Notes: generated from the sequence alone by a model not told the origin. Shown: positions 47,428-57,570, counted from the stretch's first letter. The stretch is DNA of 64,000 nucleotides from Pseudobdellovibrionaceae bacterium (GCA_016785955.1 JAEUWH010000082.1:124001-188000); one strand, 5' to 3'. Numbers and translations: made by a program.

Positions 47428-47805
47428 TTAGTAACGGAATTGGTAAACAACTTGATCGTAGTATGTACCAGAACCAGAACTCATGTAGGTACGGAAAGAG
47501 TCTGAGAACCAGTTAACTTTAGAGTTATCAACATAGAAAGAACCTTGCATTGGGAAAACAGAAGTATTGTAGGTAGGGTGGAAATCATGACCTACATACA
47601 ATTTGATTTCAGAGCAACCATAGCTGTTTCTGAATTCGATGTTGCAAGAGTTAGTGGAACGAGCGTAAGGAACATCGTCACAGATAAGACGAGTTTGACC
47701 ACCGCAGTATGGAAGAGAACGCCATTGTCCATACGGAACATAGACAACAGCAAAAGCGCTAGAGCTTACTACCAACATAGTAAGAGCAATCAATAAATTT
47801 TTCAT
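47428..47805 (-). CDS. small exported four-cysteine protein A
   Basis: 125 aa from ATG at 47805, which has AAGGAG upstream and opens a standard signal peptide (MKNLLIALTMLVVSSSAFA). The frame is open to 47901, and a second ATG at 47862 also has a good GGAAGG site. The mature part has the block 'WRSLPYCGGQTRLIC', then two more cysteines and 'IKLYVGHDFHPT'. The same block occurs in the gene at 50050-50439. No known family. Likely a small disulfide-bonded periplasmic or secreted protein; it has its own terminator. Confidence 0.75.
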   Translation of the reverse strand: MKNLLIALTMLVVSSSAFAVVYVPYGQWRSLPYCGGQTRLICDDVPYARSTNSCNIEFRNSYGCSEIKLYVGHDFHPTYNTSVFPMQGSFYVDNSKVNWFSDSFRTYMSSGSGTYYDQVVYQFRY

Positions 47806-48389
47806 TATAACTCCTTGGTTTGATTTGCGACCGGGGTCGCGGTTAATTTGTTTGTTTGTCATGTCCCTTCCTAGCGAGATGCGTGCCAACGGTTTATACA
47901 CCTGTCTACAAAAAATCGTACTGTCAAATCAAACGTATAGTGTATGACAATTTTGACAGGGACAAAAAATAATCGACACATGTATAAAGTTTCGACAATC
48001 AGCTGCAAATTGTTGCAGTTGGGGCCTAAATGAAGCCACCTTTTTTCCTGTTTGGTTATAGGGTAGCGGTGGTTCATGGATTTTTTGGTAGTGTAAGTTG
48101 GATGGAATGTGGTCATAGGCTAAGTTAAGATAAAATATTTTGTGCTGATTCAAAGCGGATTAAATCATCAATTAAATTTGATTTAAAACAAAACGATGAG
48201 ATGTAGATATTTTAGAGATGATCATTGAAAGAGTCGTGAGCATCCCGCATCCTCTTCCCCTCAAGGAAGGGATGGAAAGCAGTGTCTTTAATAAATAGAA
48301 TCATAGAAGAATCATAGGAAAGAAAAATGGCCATAACGGCCATTTTTTAAGCAATAAAGCGCTTCCTTAAAGTGTCTCGTTGAGGGTGT
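47806..48389. other. intergenic region, promoter and terminator only
   Basis: 584 bases upstream of the small exported gene and downstream of the nucleotidyltransferase-like gene. It contains the AT-rich probable promoter zone of the former (47880-48000, with three TGACA/TGTCA copies) and the terminator at 48323-48347. Short reading frames in it look random. No gene is supported. Confidence 0.5.
48323..48347 (-). terminator. terminator of the exported nucleotidyltransferase-like gene
   Basis: Perfect 10-bp stem AAAAATGGCC / GGCCATTTTT with loop ATAAC, A/T tracts on both sides. Lies about 40 bases past the stop. Confidence 0.85.
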
Positions 48390-49823
48390 TTATTTTGCGG
48401 AAATACCGTAGAAACCTAAACAACTAGCTCCTTTAGCAGAAACTTGTGTTGTTGGTTTTTCGACAGTTTCTTCTTCAGACTCATTTTCAAATTCATCGTG
48501 TTTGAACAACCTGGTTTCAAACGCGGTTTTTACTCTATTAACGATCGCATCCAGCAGTCTGGGGGCGACTTCTATTCCTGAGTCCATAGCCAACGCAAGA
48601 CGTTTACGAATTGGTAAACGAACACCAACCGCGCGAGACAATTTTGATTGCTGAGACAATGTCAAATTAGCTTCATCAAAAATTCGAAGAAGTTGGGCCT
48701 TCGTGGGTTTTAAGTCTCTTAGTACTGCCGTATTATCCAATACCCAATGCTGAGTTGCCGTCGTCATTTCAAAAAAAGTATGGCGATAAATACGAACAGC
48801 ATCCATATACTCCTCAGTAGTTTTGATTTTAGGAGTGATCAATTTAAGGAATTCATAATGAGCGGAACCTGTTCTGTAGCCAACAATTTCCGCGGCTTCG
48901 CGCAGTTGTTTCACTGTAAAGTCATCTATTGATAGACTACGATCCAATATCAAAGATGTTACATTTTTTCCTTCTACCGGAAGACTGATTCCCGCATGAG
49001 CAAGGATTCCCAATAAATTATAGTAAACGAGGTCTTTCAAGGCGTTTACAACATTACCTTTGTGAGTCTTAAGAAATTTTTCAGTAATCATTTCGCCATG
49101 ACCACGACGCGCTAAGTTCCAATCCCAATCAGTCTCGTATTTTGCGATATCGCGAATCGCAGCGATAGCGGCCGGTGACGGTTTAAGATCTGGAATATCG
49201 TAAGTTAAGCGAATAAACCGTAAAGCAGAAATAGTTTTACTGTAGTCACCTTTGATAATGATTTCCATATTCCTGAAAATTTTTTCGTCAATAGATTTAA
49301 AACCCAAAGTTCCATTCATGTAGTCATGCAAACCGTTCCATGGATCTGTAATCATGGCGGGATGGATGGTAATATTACTGATGGTTGCCCCGCCTTTGGC
49401 AATCAATTTTTTGAAAGTCTCGTTATTTACAACATCAATTTCATATTCTTTTGGTAATAGGCTGATTATTTTATCTTTATCCTCGGGAACCGAAACAAAC
49501 TCGATATCATTACCACCGCGAGGTAAAAAATCGACCAGTGGTGGCATCGTTAACTGTTTTACTTCTTCAATAGAATGAGTTTTCAACTGATCTAGATTCC
49601 AACGGATAAACCCACGAGACGAACTGCCTGTCCAGGCAATGTCTGTGCGGCCTTCGCTGTTTAACCAGGCCCACAATCTTTGAAACTCTGGTACGCGAGC
49701 GGCATTGTATCGAAGCAGATCGGAAATTTGCTCCGGAGAGTACTTCTGAGCAAGGGTTTCCGCTATTGTCACTTGAGCAATCAAAACACACGCCACTATC
49801 GTTGAAAATAGACGTAAAATCAT
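48390..49823 (-). CDS. exported poly(A)-polymerase/CCA-adding-like nucleotidyltransferase with CxxFY tail
   Basis: 477 aa. A signal peptide (LRLFSTIVACVLIAQVTIAE) precedes the domain. Four pieces recall class II poly(A) polymerases/CCA-adding enzymes: 'TGSSSRGF' (Gly65-Ser66), an acidic pair in 'GGNDIEFVSV' (Asp105, Glu107), 'ITDPWNGLHDYMNG' (like DPf.G..Dl..g), and 'SALRFIRLTYDI' (like lRa.RFa..l.f.i, near 198-209). The spacing between the first two is longer than usual (about 39 residues). The C-terminus is SCLGFYGISAK, a CxxFY tail shared with neighbours. These enzymes normally act on RNA in the cytoplasm; an exported one is odd. A catalytic role is inferred. Confidence 0.7.
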   Translation of the reverse strand: MILRLFSTIVACVLIAQVTIAETLAQKYSPEQISDLLRYNAARVPEFQRLWAWLNSEGRTDIAWTGSSSRGFIRWNLDQLKTHSIEEVKQLTMPPLVDFLPRGGNDIEFVSVPEDKDKIISLLPKEYEIDVVNNETFKKLIAKGGATISNITIHPAMITDPWNGLHDYMNGTLGFKSIDEKIFRNMEIIIKGDYSKTISALRFIRLTYDIPDLKPSPAAIAAIRDIAKYETDWDWNLARRGHGEMITEKFLKTHKGNVVNALKDLVYYNLLGILAHAGISLPVEGKNVTSLILDRSLSIDDFTVKQLREAAEIVGYRTGSAHYEFLKLITPKIKTTEEYMDAVRIYRHTFFEMTTATQHWVLDNTAVLRDLKPTKAQLLRIFDEANLTLSQQSKLSRAVGVRLPIRKRLALAMDSGIEVAPRLLDAIVNRVKTAFETRLFKHDEFENESEEETVEKPTTQVSAKGASCLGFYGISAK

Positions 49824-50049
49824 AAGTCACCTTTGTTTAAACAATTCTTGCGAATCACTCAAATTAAAGCGAGAATGATGCCAAAACTATGTCAATTTAA
49901 TCACAGGCTGTATAATTTGTTGTCGCCCATTCAATCAAAGTGACATTATTGTAGTGACAATTTTTTGCAACATCACTTTCTTCTGTCGTCGCTCTCCTTT
50001 GATGTTCTTGCCTATTGAGACTAGCTGTCTTCACATAGAAATAAATATC

Positions 50050-50439
50050 TTATTTATACAAATTATATTTAATTTTTGTATACGATCTGTTTCCTTCCGT
50101 AGTTATGAAAACATAGAAGTACTTCTTTTCAAAACCAGAAAAGTGATTTGGCAGAAGTGTATATTTATTATCGCGCATACGGTTGACCTTCTCGGTGACC
50201 GTCCATACGGAAGGGTAGAATGCTGATGATGTATAAAGATTCATGTTGGTGCAGTTTGTTCCAGTGATTTCCAGGCTGCACTTGTTGGGATCTGGTTGGC
50301 CGCCAGCTAGCGTTTCACACGTCACACGTGTCTTGCCATTGCAATAAGGCAAATTTGTCCATCCAGAATTAGCTGTAACTTGAGTTACGGAGGCCTGAAC
50401 ACTGAAACCAAGAAATAATAGAATTGAAAGGATTTTCAT
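50050..50439 (-). CDS. small exported four-cysteine protein B (paralog of A)
   Basis: 129 aa. A short signal peptide (MKILSILLFLGFSVQA) is followed by 'WTNLPYCNGKTRVTC', two more cysteines, and 'MNLYTSSAFYPS'. It aligns with the gene at 47428-47805 over the whole mature part: W-x-x-LPYC-x-G-x-TR-x-x-C, C-x-x-E, C and LY-x4-F-x-P are kept. The two paralogs flank the exported nucleotidyltransferase-like gene. It follows the PhoD-like gene by 15 bases, so probably the same transcript. Function unknown. Confidence 0.75.
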   Translation of the reverse strand: MKILSILLFLGFSVQASVTQVTANSGWTNLPYCNGKTRVTCETLAGGQPDPNKCSLEITGTNCTNMNLYTSSAFYPSVWTVTEKVNRMRDNKYTLLPNHFSGFEKKYFYVFITTEGNRSYTKIKYNLYK

Positions 50440-50454
50440 AAAGTCTCCTGCCGT

Positions 50455-51753
50455 TTACTTAGCCACTGTTCGGCGAGTTGTATGGTAGGTTTGATTTCTA
50501 CCATAAATGTTAATGTTAAGTTCTAGAGCCGACCTGTGTACCTTAGTTTCTACGATCATATAATTATTTTCTTGAGTCACATAAGTTCGTCGAGGGTTAT
50601 CGCTGACATCATCGGCGGGGGTGCTGTGAATCGCGCTGGAAGTCAGCTCGACGGACTCGTAACCTAAGATATTTTTTTCTAGATTGCTGATCTCACTATA
50701 GTGAACATCACCCGCTACAAAAATAACCGGCGCGGCTAGGTTTTTGGCGATCGAAATCATTTGGTTAAGTTCACTAATAGATTCACGCTCTACAGATTCA
50801 TATCGTTGATAGCCGCCGTAGAATTGTGAACCATTGATAAACCATACCGGTTTAAAACACTGATTGTCGAGTTTAGCTTGTACCCAAGCAATCTGTTCAC
50901 TGCCCCAAATCTTACCTTTCATTCGCGAGCCTTTTTCGCGATAATAGCGGGAATCCAAGAAAACAAAACGTTGGTTAAACAAAGACACATAAGACGATAC
51001 ACCGGGACCGTTGGACAAGTATGTGCCATCATTGCTGCCGAAGAAAGCTTTAAAAATACGAAGTGATTCGTCTTTATATGTAAAACGAGTGTCTCCGTCA
51101 TCCATTGCATAGTCGTGATCGTCCCAAATTCCAATGATCGGAGTAAGTAATTCGGTTTGATATACGTCAAGAGCCATACGAGTTTCAACGTGCCGTTCCC
51201 ATATAGTGTCGGGAGTCACTCGAACTTCTTCGTCATCGACGTAAACATTATCACCTAAGAAAAACAAAATATCGGCCTGTTTTTCTGAAACTGATTTCCA
51301 CATTGCCTTGTGATTGTTTACACGATCATCCATGCATGACATAAGACCAATTTTCATCGAGTCGTCACTAATATCCAAAGTTTGGAACATTCGCGTGTCG
51401 ATCGTTTCGTTTTTTGAATTATAAACTGTAAGCGTGAAGATGCTGCTTTTAGGTAATTTCGTCAATGTTAGGCGATCTAAGCGATATCGTGAATTGGGAT
51501 AGCTTGTTGGTTGCACGGAATCGATTGCTAGAGTTTTTCCGCGGTCGTCGGTAACGGCATAATGTAATTTTTCGCCTTCAGCGACTAAAAGAATAACCTG
51601 CGTTGATGTGTCATCCGTATAACCTTGCATCGCAGGGATTCTGCGACCCGAGGGAATCCATGATGTTGTCACCATATTGGCTTTGGCTCGGAAGCCAATC
51701 AGCAGAGAGTACAAGAAAAAATTGACACTTTTAAGAAAAGTTCTGCGGTTCAT
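50455..51753 (-). CDS. Tat-exported PhoD-like metallophosphatase
   Basis: 432 aa. A twin-arginine signal (NRRTFLKSVNFFLYSLLIGF) is followed by a short beta domain and the PhoD-type metallophosphatase core: 'IGLMSCMDD', 'DILFFLGDNVYVDDEE', 'IIGIWDDHDYAMDDGD', 'FLDSRYYREKG' and 'FVAGDVHYSE'. PhoD enzymes are calcium/iron phosphodiesterases that act on phosphodiesters such as teichoic acid, nucleotides or phospholipids. The ATG overlaps the stop of the upstream exported protein (ATGA), so they are coupled. Confidence 0.92.
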   Translation of the reverse strand: MNRRTFLKSVNFFLYSLLIGFRAKANMVTTSWIPSGRRIPAMQGYTDDTSTQVILLVAEGEKLHYAVTDDRGKTLAIDSVQPTSYPNSRYRLDRLTLTKLPKSSIFTLTVYNSKNETIDTRMFQTLDISDDSMKIGLMSCMDDRVNNHKAMWKSVSEKQADILFFLGDNVYVDDEEVRVTPDTIWERHVETRMALDVYQTELLTPIIGIWDDHDYAMDDGDTRFTYKDESLRIFKAFFGSNDGTYLSNGPGVSSYVSLFNQRFVFLDSRYYREKGSRMKGKIWGSEQIAWVQAKLDNQCFKPVWFINGSQFYGGYQRYESVERESISELNQMISIAKNLAAPVIFVAGDVHYSEISNLEKNILGYESVELTSSAIHSTPADDVSDNPRRTYVTQENNYMIVETKVHRSALELNINIYGRNQTYHTTRRTVAK

Positions 51754-52853
51754 AATTGCTCCTGGAAAGGCTTTGCGGCTGTCCGCTCATATTTTTGTAA
51801 AAACTGTTTAAAAGTAGCTTGAAATACCCAAATATTTTTGTTCTCAGTTAAGATCCGTGGGGCGCCCATTCTCATCAAGGCGCGTGCCCACGTCGGAAGG
51901 TCAACCCAAAAAGAAATTGTCTGATCCATATCGACACTTTTCGTGCGCATAAGAGTGAGTCCGACCTGCATCATGGAGGTTAATAAATCACTTTCCTTTC
52001 GCAAAATCAAAAACTTGCCAAACTCAATTTGAACATCACCCAAGTTGTCGATTCCAAACTGAGAAACACTAACTGGATGTTTCGGATCACCACGTACAAT
52101 ACCCATTAGGCCTACAATTTTATTCTGATATTTGGCGACAAGAAAATAAGTTGGCTGGCCAGTCATTTTTTCCTGATCTTTCAGTACATCAACTGTATTG
52201 GTTGCTTGAGCTTTATAGGCTTGGTCTAGTAATTTGAGTCCCGCTAAAACATCCGGGTGAAGGGTGTCAATTTTATTAGGAGTTTGTTCTAAATAAACAA
52301 AAACTTCTGTTTGGTCAGGAAGGATAACTTTTTTCTCAAGCTTTTTCTTTGGCGGAAATAACTCTTCGGCAATACTTTTAGATTTGCTATAAAATTCGGT
52401 ACCCTTCAGAAGAGAAGCAACATCTTTTGAAATTTGCTCGGGCGAAATATTCAAAAAAGTTAAATCGGTATCGTGAATTGGAATTTTAAGGTCAGAAATC
52501 AATTTTTTGATGAGTTCATGCTCTTTAGTATTTCCTGTCTTAACGGCCTTAATTTTTGTGAGTACCAAAGCGGACACATATGGACTAATAGGATTAGATT
52601 GTTTATGAAAATGAGTTCTTTTCCAGCGCCGCAGTTCAAGTTTGCTCATTTTTTCATAAATAGGTTTAATTATTTTTTCAACTTCTTTAGATGATTGGAT
52701 TCGTCTCATCTGAAGATCAGAATAGGGTGACAACTCGCTTAAATAAGCCTCATAACCGTGATGGTTTGTCGCCTTATAGAATTGTACACACGTCGCCGTA
52801 TGTGACAGTGAACAGCTTAATAAAAGCAAGAGAGCATATTTAAGCATGTCCAT
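51750..52853 (-). CDS. exported protein with CxxFY motif and GNAT-like segment
   Basis: 367 aa. Signal peptide 'YALLLLLSCSLSHTA' is followed at once by TCVQFYKATN, the CxxFY motif seen at the C-termini of three neighbours; 'FYKAT' is identical to the tail of the 501-aa protein at 56065-57570. The C-terminal half has a GNAT-like pattern ('FLVAKYQNKIVGLMGIVRG', then 'GDVQIEFGKFLILRKE'), so an acyltransferase fold is possible. First gene of a three-gene unit with the PhoD-like and small Cys-rich genes. Confidence 0.65.
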   Translation of the reverse strand: MDMLKYALLLLLSCSLSHTATCVQFYKATNHHGYEAYLSELSPYSDLQMRRIQSSKEVEKIIKPIYEKMSKLELRRWKRTHFHKQSNPISPYVSALVLTKIKAVKTGNTKEHELIKKLISDLKIPIHDTDLTFLNISPEQISKDVASLLKGTEFYSKSKSIAEELFPPKKKLEKKVILPDQTEVFVYLEQTPNKIDTLHPDVLAGLKLLDQAYKAQATNTVDVLKDQEKMTGQPTYFLVAKYQNKIVGLMGIVRGDPKHPVSVSQFGIDNLGDVQIEFGKFLILRKESDLLTSMMQVGLTLMRTKSVDMDQTISFWVDLPTWARALMRMGAPRILTENKNIWVFQATFKQFLQKYERTAAKPFQEQL

Positions 52854-53257
52854 GTTGTCCTAAGAACAAGAGTAAGCTGTTGCTACTACTATGCGTGGGT
52901 AACCGTAAAGTCGAGGGGATGAAGATTAGAAAAGAAAAAATAAATGGTTCCACTATATAGCCGTCCTTGTTTAGGTATCGCTAGCATCTGATAGCCTGAA
53001 GGCCAGATACAGCGATATATATGCCATTCGAAATTAGCTATATTTGTTTTAACGCTGGCGTGGGCGTCTCAAAATGACAAACTTCGTAGACACCGTCATC
53101 AGGATTGGCAATTTTTTGGTGTATGGGAGTAGGACAGTTACGCTCAGAACTGCGATATTTTACCTATCTATATATAATATCGAGCCACAGGCTGTTTTGG
53201 ATATGATGGCACTGACTCTGCAGCTGTCTTAATAATCCTTAATATTGGAGGAGCGGA
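52854..53257. other. 404-base divergent intergenic region with long nested hairpin
   Basis: Between two divergent exported-protein genes. It has a 42-base inverted repeat at 52976-53017 (TATCGCT..ATCTG / CAGAT..AGCGATA, with inner GCC/GGC). It is not followed by T, so not a terminator. The rest should hold both promoters. No gene is supported. Confidence 0.6.
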
Positions 53258-56089
53258 TTGTATTGGTTGAGGCGGAAAAAGGATAAATTAAAAAAGAGAT
53301 CACCATCAAATTTGTGGTTTCATAGCCTATCGCGATTAGTGTTATTTGCGAGCGTCGTTTTATTCACTCAATTTTCTTGGGGCGAGTATTTTCGAACGGC
53401 TCCCCAAAAAATCCAATATTTGGTTCACTTAAGGCAAAACTATCCAGATATTTATCGTGATTTTATAACTCGTTATAACGCTTTTGAATTTCTAGAGACG
53501 GCGCAAAATGCTATTGAAGCCGTTGGTTTTAAGAATAAAACAATCAATGGATACTCTTGGGATGTTTTTAATTTAGGAGAAGAGTTAGTTGACCGTTCTT
53601 ATGATGTCGAGGCTGTACGATCAAAAATTGTAACAACAATGGGTATGCTTGAAAGCCAAGAAAGTATCCCAGAACTAATCAGACAGACGTCCGCTAAAGC
53701 AGCTAAGTTTGATGCGATCACAGCTGGACTTGCTCAAACAGACCCGGCCCTGGGGTTGCGTGAAGTTTTAAGAATTTCAGATCCCAATCAGCGACTAGCT
53801 GAAATTACAAAACGTGTCGGACATTTACGGGAAATAGAAGGTATTAATCCTAAATTTCTAGGGTTAACTCAAAAAGTTATTTCCGGGCCTGAACTATTGG
53901 CGCTATACAGTGAGGCGATAACTAATAGACATTTTCTAAATAGCCTTGTGTGGTTGTTACAATTAAGCAAGGATCTTCCGGATCATAAAGCAAAAGCAAT
54001 CAGCGAATTAACTCTGCGAGTTCGCAAGTTATTACCCCAAACTATAGCAGAGGCGCTATTGAAGAAAATTGATGTAAATGACTTTCAAGATATGGAGCTT
54101 CCGAAAAATACAATAGCAAAAATCATTAAAGGCGCAGAGGAAGATCTTAAAAAATTGTCATTTGTGAAGGTGGGATCAACACAAAAAACACACATAATGT
54201 CCATCATGCGTTCACATCCATACGACGCATTTCCGCGGGGCTCTGTTGGCGATTGCTCGACAACGAATTGCTTCGCTATGCCGCTAGTTTCTGCAGAAGA
54301 GTATTATTGGATTTTAAGACCAGACGGTAGTGTCAAAGGGTATTTTCAATTTACGCGAATCAAAGTTGATGGAAAAGTTGCGTTGTATTTGAACACAATT
54401 TCTGGTTCAGGTATTTCACGTGCTGATGCACGAGCTGTTTTTCACACAGTGGCCACATCGTTAAAACATTTAGGTGCAGAGAAAATTATTTTACCAATGA
54501 AGGAAAAAATTCCATTCATTATTAACTTCCCTGAAGTGGCCGTTGTTTATGATGAGTTATTAAAAAATGCTAAAAAAGTGAATGTTGCTTATATAGATGG
54601 AAACGATCGTTTAAAACTGCTTCCTTATATTGAGGACTCTTTAGATTTGCCTGAGAAAAATACAGAAGGTATGGAAATTAAACTGCAAGATGTAATTGAT
54701 CCCAAAATCACTTCTGAAATTAAAAACATGAAAATTACACCAGACCATGTTTTTTCTAAAGCAAAAAGTACAGATATTTTGATGGTGGTTTTAGAGCTAA
54801 GAAATCGGGAAGAAAATATCGAAGGTATTAAGGAAGTGCTTCGTCATTACTCGCTTGATCAAGAAAATTTTGAGAAGCTTTGGAAAATTGTTTCAAATGA
54901 AGATAAGAAAACTGTTGCAGAATTTCATCGATTAACTCAGCACTTTTTAGATAAATTAAATATTGGATATAATTGGAAAGAATTAGTGTCATCACCATTA
55001 TTCTTTCAGGGTCATATGCGGGCACCGGACGCCTTAGTTGGCGCTAATGGGAACACAGTGATGGGCTACGTTCAAATTTTGTTAAAGGCATACACTGATA
55101 TACCTGCAGTTTATGAGTTAATAGGTAAAAATAGACCTTCGCTGTTAGTGCGGAATGATTTTGTTGATTTGGTGAAAAGTCTATTTAAGAAAAATATAAA
55201 AGAGTTTGATCGCTTGTTGGACTACTATGAACTTGAGCATAGGTCTGCCTATCGGACCTTAGCTTCTCTTTTTGAAGCCGGTTTAACAAAAGATCATTTC
55301 AAAAGTGAAATTGAAAATCTATCTCATGCTTGGGAGTTAAATGTTTCAGATCCTATGCGTGCGCACGGTGTTTTCTTTAGAAGAATCACATTGCTAGGAA
55401 TCATTCATGAGTACAGCCCATCGTACTTTGTTGCGATGATGTCGCGTTTAGAAAAAATGGTAAAAACAGGTGTTGTGCTTAATGATGATGACATACGTAC
55501 TGTTGCCAGCTATTTGGCCGCGGCGACAAATAAAGATAAACTTGATCGAGGCCAAGTTCAACGTATGGAAAATTTTTTGATGTCTAGTGATATGGGAATG
55601 TCATTCCTGCCACATTTTGGAATTTTCTCGATTGAAAAAATAAATGTCCCTAAATTAACAGATAATTTATTAAGTAAAGGAAAATATGAATGGGCCGCCC
55701 AGCTGATTCATAAAGGCTCTTGGTTGAAACATCCGAAGGCCCCTTTATGGATGCAACAAATTTGGATGCACAAAGATGAACTCAGTGTAGATCTAATTTT
55801 ACTGGGCTTTCAGGTTAATCCTGACCTTCTTAAGGTGCCAGGCATTGAGCGGTTCGTGGATGATTTAATGGTTCGGGTTAAAGGAAATTCACAAAATGAG
55901 ATGGCTTTAGCAAAAATTTTGATTTCTCAAACTGAAAAAATGACTGAACAAAGAATCTCATGGTTAAGGCAGGCAGAAAATCCAGACATTAAAGACATGG
56001 TGAATACGTATTTGAAAGTCAACAAATTGAAATCTTCATCTAACGGCCAGCAAGGGAGAACGGCATGTATCAATTTCTACGGTCAATAG
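53258..56089 (+). CDS. large exported protein with GNAT-like centre and CxxFY tail
   Basis: 943 aa from TTG at 53258, which has a strong GGAGGAG 5 bases upstream; the gene lacks an ATG near there. A basic N-terminus and a membrane/signal helix (LVLFASVVLFTQFSWG) are followed by a helical domain. Residues about 320-430 form a GNAT-like segment ('GDCSTTNCFAMPLVSAEEYY', 'SVKGYFQFTRIKVDG', 'HTVATSLKHLGAEKIILP'). The remaining 500 residues are helical repeats. The last residues are ACINFYGQ (CxxFY tail). The final 25 bases overlap the next gene. Envelope or secreted; activity unproven. Confidence 0.7.
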   Translation: MYWLRRKKDKLKKRSPSNLWFHSLSRLVLFASVVLFTQFSWGEYFRTAPQKIQYLVHLRQNYPDIYRDFITRYNAFEFLETAQNAIEAVGFKNKTINGYSWDVFNLGEELVDRSYDVEAVRSKIVTTMGMLESQESIPELIRQTSAKAAKFDAITAGLAQTDPALGLREVLRISDPNQRLAEITKRVGHLREIEGINPKFLGLTQKVISGPELLALYSEAITNRHFLNSLVWLLQLSKDLPDHKAKAISELTLRVRKLLPQTIAEALLKKIDVNDFQDMELPKNTIAKIIKGAEEDLKKLSFVKVGSTQKTHIMSIMRSHPYDAFPRGSVGDCSTTNCFAMPLVSAEEYYWILRPDGSVKGYFQFTRIKVDGKVALYLNTISGSGISRADARAVFHTVATSLKHLGAEKIILPMKEKIPFIINFPEVAVVYDELLKNAKKVNVAYIDGNDRLKLLPYIEDSLDLPEKNTEGMEIKLQDVIDPKITSEIKNMKITPDHVFSKAKSTDILMVVLELRNREENIEGIKEVLRHYSLDQENFEKLWKIVSNEDKKTVAEFHRLTQHFLDKLNIGYNWKELVSSPLFFQGHMRAPDALVGANGNTVMGYVQILLKAYTDIPAVYELIGKNRPSLLVRNDFVDLVKSLFKKNIKEFDRLLDYYELEHRSAYRTLASLFEAGLTKDHFKSEIENLSHAWELNVSDPMRAHGVFFRRITLLGIIHEYSPSYFVAMMSRLEKMVKTGVVLNDDDIRTVASYLAAATNKDKLDRGQVQRMENFLMSSDMGMSFLPHFGIFSIEKINVPKLTDNLLSKGKYEWAAQLIHKGSWLKHPKAPLWMQQIWMHKDELSVDLILLGFQVNPDLLKVPGIERFVDDLMVRVKGNSQNEMALAKILISQTEKMTEQRISWLRQAENPDIKDMVNTYLKVNKLKSSSNGQQGRTACINFYGQ

Positions 56090-57570
56090 ATACATATATT
56101 AAAGAAATAGTTTGTAATGCATTTTCAATTTGTGTGACAGCCGTAGTATTTAGTTTTTCCTCTTCGTTAGCGGCCTCAACGAATCGTGTATTCGTGATTT
56201 CCAATTCCATTCAGACAATTAATATATTCACGGGTGCGCCCCAGCCAATTGATGGACCAAGCAAGTACGCCGGTTTTGGTGATATTGCGGCTAATTTGGT
56301 GGCTGCCACAGAGATTAAGGCTCGCTACCCGGATCGCAAAGTAAGATTAATCGTAACAACCGCCTACGAGCGAATTGATCCCCTCATTCCAACAACTGAT
56401 GAGATTGTTAAAATTATGGCTCCAGATTTAGATCCAACTAAAAAGGGCGAAGTTCAAATGCATGGTAACGTGGAAGTATTATTTGTTCCTGTGGATTTTC
56501 ATGCGGCTTTAAAAATCAATTCAAAATTTTCATTTTATACAGAGCTTTTAAAGTTATCGATTAGAATTCCAAAACATTTGCCAAACGCCGATTTAAGTTT
56601 AAATTTTTCGGCGTATCCTTCTTCGGCTCCGGTATTAAGAGTAAATTCTAAACTTTCTATGAGTGTGGAAGAGCATTATGGTGACTTTGAAATGATTCAA
56701 GACTTTGCAGGCAAAGGTTGGCAGAAAAGGGGCGCTCATATGGAAGTTGCTTCTGGTCCGTACTCTTCGGGGTTTATGCTGACCCATGCACGCCCTAGTC
56801 GCGAAGCCAGTATTGAAATAATTCGTAGTTGGGGGAAAAAGGAAAAAAATGTTGTTTTACCCAGAGGCGATTTTTTGCCACTAATCGCCTATTCAGCGGG
56901 CTGGCAATCGATCCAGGTATACGTCGATGCATTAGCTCACGTTCAGTTGCCCAATAAGGACATGGTCCTATTTGTGAAGGACTTCCCAGAGGTTAAGTAT
57001 GAAAATGTTCCAAAGTCGATAAAAGTAATTCCCGTAAAAGGCTTACCGCATGAAGTAATGAGCGCCATCATTCAGGAATCACATTTTGCGCCACTTGTTA
57101 CAGGTGATATTTCATATGGGCAGGGTTTAAGTACCGTTCGTAACGGAAAAGCTTTAATCTATGAGAGCCCTGAATGGAAAGTCGATAGCGCGCAAGGTAC
57201 AAAAATTACAATCGCTAAAGATATGGGTGTTGCTGAATCTAAGCTGGATTCTATGTTTTTGCTGTCAGAGGAGCTGGAGAAAATGGATATGGAAAGGTTA
57301 AAGCAGAAATCTAAGCAAGTGGCGGTGTTTATAGGCGATAGCGAATTTCAAACTAAAATCTCTAATGCAATTAAGGCAAGGTATTCTCGTTGGGATATTA
57401 TCGCTAATACACTTAAAGTTGCAGGTCATATAATTGATAAAGTTGGTGTTAGAAATTTGAAATCATACAGTAAAGAATCTAAAAAGCGTGATTTTAAAAT
57501 TCTTTTAGAGTCTGAATTTAACGGCAATATCCCAGGATGCTATCGCTTTTATAAAGCGACGAGTATTTAG
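56065..57570 (+). CDS. exported GT-B glycosyltransferase-like protein with CxxFY tail
   Basis: 501 aa. Membrane/signal segment near residues 18-35 (SICVTAVVFSFSSSLAAS). The mature part looks like a GT-B fold: 'GFGDIAANLVAATEIKARYP' and 'RKVRLIVTTAYERI' at the start, and 'FAPLVTGDISYGQGLSTVRN' followed by 'GKALIYE' near the donor-binding half, reminiscent of EarP-type transferases. It ends GCYRFYKATSI, the CxxFY tail. The start lies within the end of the 943-aa gene, with AGGGAG upstream, so translation is coupled. Glycosyltransferase activity is inferred. Confidence 0.65.
   Translation: MYQFLRSIDTYIKEIVCNAFSICVTAVVFSFSSSLAASTNRVFVISNSIQTINIFTGAPQPIDGPSKYAGFGDIAANLVAATEIKARYPDRKVRLIVTTAYERIDPLIPTTDEIVKIMAPDLDPTKKGEVQMHGNVEVLFVPVDFHAALKINSKFSFYTELLKLSIRIPKHLPNADLSLNFSAYPSSAPVLRVNSKLSMSVEEHYGDFEMIQDFAGKGWQKRGAHMEVASGPYSSGFMLTHARPSREASIEIIRSWGKKEKNVVLPRGDFLPLIAYSAGWQSIQVYVDALAHVQLPNKDMVLFVKDFPEVKYENVPKSIKVIPVKGLPHEVMSAIIQESHFAPLVTGDISYGQGLSTVRNGKALIYESPEWKVDSAQGTKITIAKDMGVAESKLDSMFLLSEELEKMDMERLKQKSKQVAVFIGDSEFQTKISNAIKARYSRWDIIANTLKVAGHIIDKVGVRNLKSYSKESKKRDFKILLESEFNGNIPGCYRFYKATSI

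Follow-up and report, generated by a model that had tools for sequence, protein, structure and literature searches.

Four exported proteins encoded between positions 48,390 and 57,570 of a 64,000-nucleotide stretch from a Pseudobdellovibrionaceae bacterium (GCA_016785955.1, JAEUWH010000082.1:124001-188000; the whole stretch is called the window hereafter) carry the same five-residue motif, C-x-x-F-Y (C..FY), close to one of their ends, which raises the question of whether exported proteins with unrelated domains share a terminal tag and, if so, what such a tag would do. Re-reading of all sequence ends in the window gave start and end coordinates in agreement with the first-pass annotation and bore out its reading of the motif in all four proteins, each of which has a clear Sec signal peptide (genes at 48390, 51750, 53258 and 56065). 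The 48390 protein terminates in ASCLGFYGISAK (SCLGFYGISAK) and the 56065 protein in PGCYRFYKATSI (GCYRFYKATSI), the 53258 protein also has the motif at its C-terminus, and the 51750 protein, which reads MDMLKYALLLLLSCSLSHTATCVQFYKATN, has TCVQFYKATN directly behind its signal peptide. None of the remaining exported open reading frames (ORFs) of the window has C..FY near either end. The analysis described here, in which genes and signal peptides were called by our own scripts and heuristic and counts rest on profile scans and fetched genome stretches, identifies C..FY as a tag found at either end of exported proteins and limited to one genus.

A five-residue motif is short, and searching the raw DNA for C..FY close to a stop codon proved uninformative, giving hundreds of meaningless matches and still more in the backwards control. 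Inside long ORFs of an unbiased sample (the window plus 395 kb of the same genome), C..FY occurs once in about 107,000 interior residues, a rarity that argues against chance for the four cases in the window, the proof resting on a genome-wide scan. The random 395-kb sample by itself is too small (p = 0.085 for enrichment of C..FY), because the tagged genes sit in clusters. A profile of 18 tagged ends (A1) was run through six genomes of the genus, and in the window's genome it returned 20 new matches in long frames, outside the profile, 19 of which lie at a protein end (8 at the C-terminus and 11 directly behind a signal peptide) and one in the interior; 16 of the terminal matches were placed by script and three N-terminal ones by eye, their signal peptides having been missed by the script. 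A profile of 52 sequences (A2) gave 44, 16, 25, 28, 8 and 11 matches at E<=1 across the six genomes (132 in total), while its reversed strings gave 21 matches over all six, just one of them in a frame of more than 200 amino acids (aa). Since the A2 counts contain the profile's own training members, we take the A1 result as the independent test. E-values of a 15-residue profile are weak singly, and the weight comes from placement and from the reversed control.

The 138 other genomes of the class yielded 0-5 matches per genome at E<=0.5, mostly in short frames, which corresponds to background. Among twelve outgroup regions around longer-frame matches, C..FY is interior in nine, mostly in cytosolic-type proteins; the other three comprise one with C..FY near a protein start that has no signal peptide (L179) and two without C..FY. 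The motif is thus enriched at the ends of exported proteins, as expected of the shared terminal tag that the first-pass annotation had proposed.

The catalogue drawn from this genus and the relatives closest to it holds 84 different exported proteins with the tag, 49 with it near the C-terminus (C-type) and 35 with it near the mature N-terminus (N-type), so that the two-ended placement noticed in the window is general. They fall into 57 unrelated families (BLASTP), and within a family the tag is always at the same end, which upholds the view that the motif is not inherited with a domain. Cys is present in all tags, position +1 is mostly Leu, Ile or Val, and Ser or Asn-Ser stands before the Cys; in the unfiltered list, +3 is Phe in 43 of 55 C-type rows and +4 is Tyr in 52 of 55, and both residues occur in all N-type rows. 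In N-type proteins the tag lies 2-10 residues from the new N-terminus and its Cys is mostly mature residue 3-6; in C-type proteins it lies 0-13 residues from the C-terminus, with a median of 3 residues after FY. The linker before C-type tags is basic, its mean net charge being +2.6 per 25 residues versus +0.4 in controls (p = 6e-7). Tagged genes are clustered in the window and also on contigs C60, C89, C115, C21, C78 and C54 of the same genome; the description of the tagged proteins as neighbours therefore holds for this locus, and not for the set as a whole. The 36-kb contig C115 holds about ten tagged genes. Five related N-tagged exported proteins of 491-595 aa are encoded there (L123:343-9254 and L081:14226-15749 of genome G000), four of them side by side except for a single unrelated tagged protein that intervenes, and this family has no Pfam match.

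Homologues in close relatives keep the tag. Three further genomes of the genus encode relatives of the 48390 protein with the ends SCLILYLGKL, SCISFYTP, SCQNFYKGAHGF and ICLGFYRD, and relatives of the 56065 protein end in QCVKYYD, SCLGFYSN, VCHQFYFR, RCFSFYKTS..., ACQKFYMH and MCLHFYL; across both family alignments, at overall identities of 20-57%, the tag Cys never varies, and the tail before the tag is unalignable. The homologue of the 53258 protein in genome G002 (50% identity) has the C-terminus ECLQYYSH, and aldo-keto reductases with core identities of 53-63% keep the tag behind a divergent linker, ending in SCLAFYN, QCLSFYRL and KCLKFY in the window's genus. For the 51750 protein, Pfam gave no match and a search of 60 relatives no homologue. 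Neither a lack of enrichment nor homologues without the tag, the two outcomes that the first-pass annotation had set against its own proposal, was observed. An EarP-like ORF of 202 aa in Bdellovibrio sp. 28-41-41 (L168:3923-4531) has lost most of its middle and keeps the tag, SCEKFYSN.

Beyond the genus, other forms of the tag are found. In genus g10 (genomes G014 and G030) the pattern C..[VIL]F, picked after the first examples had been seen, occurs at the ends of exported soluble proteins in five cases versus two interior ones (odds ratio 23, p = 1.7e-4). A relative of the 56065 protein in G014 ends in SCSQVFKN, and a small profile of this form found two more there, ELSCKQVFKK* and the aldo-keto reductase end MCSRVFTGR. 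In the Pseudobdellovibrionaceae isolate R2F, an EarP-like homologue ends in RCEDLWSSSGHH (CEDLW; one case). In these sequences the Cys and an aromatic residue at +4 are constant while the dipeptide varies by lineage, as would be expected if a putative reader co-evolves with the tag. Samples of the Bdellovibrio-like genera g6 and g3 do not have the tag above background and the rest of the class is not elevated, so that a phylum-wide tag is rejected: C..FY is confined to a single genus and occurs in variant form in at least one second genus and in one additional genome, a far narrower range than the Bdellovibrionota, across which the search had been suggested. Named database records that match the family are the Bdellovibrionaceae metagenome-assembled genomes UBA2351, UBA2316 and MAG_57, and 'Bdellovibrio sp. 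28-41-41'.

The number of Cys residues bears on what the tag could do. An odd number in the mature chain is found in 66 of the 84 tagged proteins versus 26 of 101 untagged soluble exported proteins (Fisher p = 4e-13), tagged mature chains having as a rule one or three Cys and a single one in 44 of 84. The remaining Cys thus pair off, as they should in an oxidising compartment, and the tag Cys is the odd one out, without a partner in its own chain; this parity argues against an intramolecular disulfide motif, and with it against the first-pass suggestion of disulfide tethering in so far as it concerned one chain. A lipobox ([LVI][ASTVI][GAS]C), even when read leniently, fits only one of the 35 N-type tags, and none of the 49 C-type tails has a membrane-like hydrophobic stretch or an Arg-rich end. 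Among eight tagged proteins scanned, there was no match at E<=1 to NCBIfam sorting or CTERM models, nor an NCBIfam match to the C-terminal sorting domain of the type IX secretion system. Membership among lipoproteins and CTERM proteins is rejected on these grounds. In the two AlphaFold2 models the tag is predicted to sit on a disordered tail, residues 438-477 of the 48390 protein (mean predicted local distance difference test score, pLDDT, 79.6) and 462-501 of the 56065 protein (pLDDT 70, predicted template modelling score 0.73).

The domains of the tagged proteins point further. Pfam recognises AAA+ ATPase, AAA+ with peptidase M41, ABC1 kinase (twice, one of 2081 aa), circularly permuted ATP-grasp, radical SAM, FAD oxidoreductase, aldo-keto reductase, GNAT acetyltransferase (twice), cytidine deaminase, a diacylglycerol glucosyltransferase fused to an acyltransferase, APP1 phosphatidate phosphatase, GDPD, peptidyl-arginine deiminase, Fic, S41, S9 and C92 peptidases and alpha/beta hydrolase, with sub-threshold matches to PLD and Gln deamidase. 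By simple pattern, AAA+ Walker A/B, HEAGH, HAE..PCxxC, HADLHQGN/DFG (ABC1), DVDDT (APP1) and the PhoD motif are intact; the catalytic motifs of Fic and radical SAM were not found by such patterns. The 48390 protein, which carries a GSSSRG...NDIE motif, has the CCA-adding enzyme 3h37 as its best PDB match (probability 0.99, E = 3e-3), and the 56065 protein has EarP 6j7m (E = 2.4e-11, probability 1.0), EarP being the arginine rhamnosyltransferase of EF-P. One exported protein of 1116 aa (L190:1140-4490, genome G003), with two Walker A motifs, an M41-type HEAGH and the C-type tag CLHFY, looks like an FtsH-type machine that carries a signal peptide.

ATP, nucleotide sugars, acetyl-CoA, NAD(P)H and tRNA are unavailable in the periplasm, and many tagged activities need them; from this, our main argument, we infer that the destination is the cytoplasm of another cell. 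The tag is on balance probably an address that acts after Sec export, for enzymes working in prey or host cells, and the first-pass idea of effectors of a predator gains support from the domains, with the destination itself only a likely one. Judging from sequence, the signal peptide would bring the protein to the periplasm and then be cleaved, leaving the tag near the new N-terminus or the C-terminus on a flexible, often basic tail. A putative envelope component would read the free Cys and the aromatic pair, capture or covalently modify the Cys, and hand the enzymes outward, to act in the prey or host cytoplasm, where ATP, nucleotide sugars, acetyl-CoA and tRNA exist. More tentatively, and a little short of what we would call probable, this would be a new bacterial delivery system, in which a position-independent, lineage-specific C-x-x-aromatic tag, changing with its reader, would direct, through that reader, about 30-40 Sec-exported enzymes of cytosolic type per genome into prey or host cytoplasm.

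Several points weigh against an address tag of this kind. No reader, anchor or transporter was found, nor the co-occurring protease or anchor family that the first-pass annotation had suggested looking for. The catalogue was collected by the motif itself, from fetched stretches; the nameable genomes of the genus are all metagenome assemblies, for which predation is assumed from kinship; and the tagged S41 and S9 peptidases, PhoD, GDPD and alpha/beta hydrolases could act in the periplasm or extracellularly. In Bdellovibrio bacteriovorus, of another genus, a Sec signal peptide alone suffices for extracellular NanoLuc (PMC12622784), so that release need not require a tag. The same species has type I and II systems besides Sec, and its Bd0468-mCherry reaches the bdelloplast (PMC12622784). 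With Bdellovibrio-like genera g6 and g3 lacking the tag, C..FY would act beyond simple release, or lineage-specifically.

Other explanations share part of this evidence. Lipidation of the tag Cys, or another covalent anchor on it, would display the enzymes at the surface or outer membrane of the predator itself, as has been suggested for MYXO-CTERM proteins. We judge this unlikely: an invariant, unpaired Cys beside hydrophobic residues speaks for it, as does the invariant C-terminal Cys of MYXO-CTERM, which is predicted to be lipidated (PMC11980579), but the near-absence of lipoboxes and the lack of transmembrane helices and Arg-rich ends speak against it, and surface display would leave ATP-, nucleotide-sugar- and acyl-CoA-dependent domains unexplained. 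An intermolecular disulfide, by which the tag Cys would bind a common carrier or a second copy in the periplasm or at the surface, fits an unpaired Cys on a flexible tail within an oxidising compartment; we nevertheless consider it improbable, since a plain disulfide would need neither a conserved aromatic pair nor a genus-specific form. The one conserved small Cys protein nearby, which is exported, has four conserved Cys and lies beside the tagged genes both in the window's genome and in G002, is present in only three of the six genomes of the genus and so cannot be a general carrier; it was rejected as the reader for the same reason.

More improbable still is a signal for processing, quality control or degradation, read by a periplasmic protease and with no role in destination. 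A degron or processing site would fit a terminal position at either end, but terminus-reading proteases usually read one end only, the enzyme functions give no reason for such a signal, and one of the bearers of the tag is itself an S41/Tsp protease (L077). Chance, compositional artefact or inheritance with one domain, whatever the brevity of the motif, is as good as refuted by the reversed profile, the class-wide background, the terminal placement of 19 of 20 new matches, the 57 families and the retention of the tag in homologues.

The features of the locus are collected in Table 1. At 56065-56089 of the window, the tag codons of the 53258 gene run into the start of the 56065 gene, an overlap that suggests translational coupling of two tagged genes. 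The window's untagged PhoD-like protein shares 27% identity (E = 9e-47) with a tagged PhoD of the same genome; this paralogue (L083:6785-8218) is Sec-exported and ends in QCHRFYKAE, and the two make a natural tagged/untagged pair. Small exported proteins with four conserved Cys are encoded at 47428-47901 and 50050-50439 of the window, both on the minus strand, and also at L169:6811-7191.

Table 1. Tagged genes, their tags and the adjoining PhoD-like gene in the window
Feature	Position	Strand	Remarks
Exported nucleotidyltransferase-like protein, 477 aa, C-type tag	48390..49823	-	signal peptide MILRLFSTIVACVLIAQVTIA
Tag CLGFY, stop 5 residues on	48408..48422	-	Cys and Tyr invariant in family A6 (5 members)
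PhoD-like phosphatase, untagged, Tat-like start MNRRTFLK	50455..51753	-	Pfam PF09423, E 1.4e-11; overlaps stop of 51750 gene
Exported protein, fold not recognised, 367 aa, N-type tag	51750..52853	-	adjoins untagged PhoD-like gene
Tag CVQFY, directly behind signal peptide of 51750 protein	52776..52790	-	sequence reading
Exported 943-aa protein, C-type tag	53258..56089	+	ends TACINFYGQ
Tag CINFY, stop 2 residues on	56066..56080	+	sequence reading
Exported GT-B glycosyltransferase, EarP-like, 501 aa, C-type tag	56065..57570	+	structure match to EarP
Tag CYRFY, stop 5 residues on	57538..57552	+	tag Cys invariant in 8-member family (21-57% identity)

A 2025 paper states that, as far as its authors know, secretion in B. 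bacteriovorus has for the most part not been explored (PMC12622784). A tag that can be searched for would make protein delivery into prey by Bdellovibrio-type predators a testable question, as it supplies a list of candidate effectors and a defined residue to mutate. The lineage-specific forms (C..FY in one genus, C..[VIL]F in another and C..LW in a further genome) provide a phyletic signature with which a reader could be sought. The list includes enzymes that are odd for an envelope, such as the exported double-AAA+/M41 protease, the ABC1 kinases and the EarP-like glycosyltransferase.

Among known systems, bacterial lipoproteins (lipobox, Lgt/Lsp) likewise have a conserved Cys shortly behind the signal peptide, whereas 34 of the 35 N-type tags have no lipobox and the tag Cys is not mature residue +1. 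PEP-CTERM, GlyGly-CTERM, LPXTG and archaeosortase signals are sorting signals that, like C..FY, stand at the ends of numerous unrelated exported proteins, but all have a transmembrane helix and a basic end, and the substrate features of sortases, exosortases and rhombosortases (LPXTG, PEP or GG with helix and basic end) were not found in the tagged proteins. Effector candidates of powdery mildews and rusts have a [YFW]xC motif, an aromatic residue and a Cys, directly behind the signal peptide; in these fungal proteins the order is reversed, and the Cys is proposed to form a disulfide with another Cys at the C-terminal end of its own chain. A literature search found no described motif like the two-ended C..FY, and to our knowledge no bacterial sorting signal occurs at either end of soluble proteins without a membrane anchor. 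The closest bacterial likeness is with MYXO-CTERM and its myxosortase MrtX in Myxococcota, where dozens of Sec-exported proteins per genome, in one lineage, have an invariant Cys near the C-terminus; that signal is C-terminal only and tripartite, with a signature, a transmembrane helix and an Arg-rich tail (PMC11980579). C..FY has no helix or basic patch after the motif and stands at the mature N-terminus as well; the 49 C-type proteins do have an invariant C-terminal Cys signature, unlike the GCGC-like one. PEXEL of Plasmodium and RxLR of oomycetes combine a signal peptide with a short linear motif on diverse effector-like proteins (PMC1464399); they are eukaryotic, N-terminal only and without Cys, and their role in translocation is established, whereas that of C..FY is one we infer. 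The same combination, a signal peptide and a short motif, is found here on 57 families with effector-type domains.
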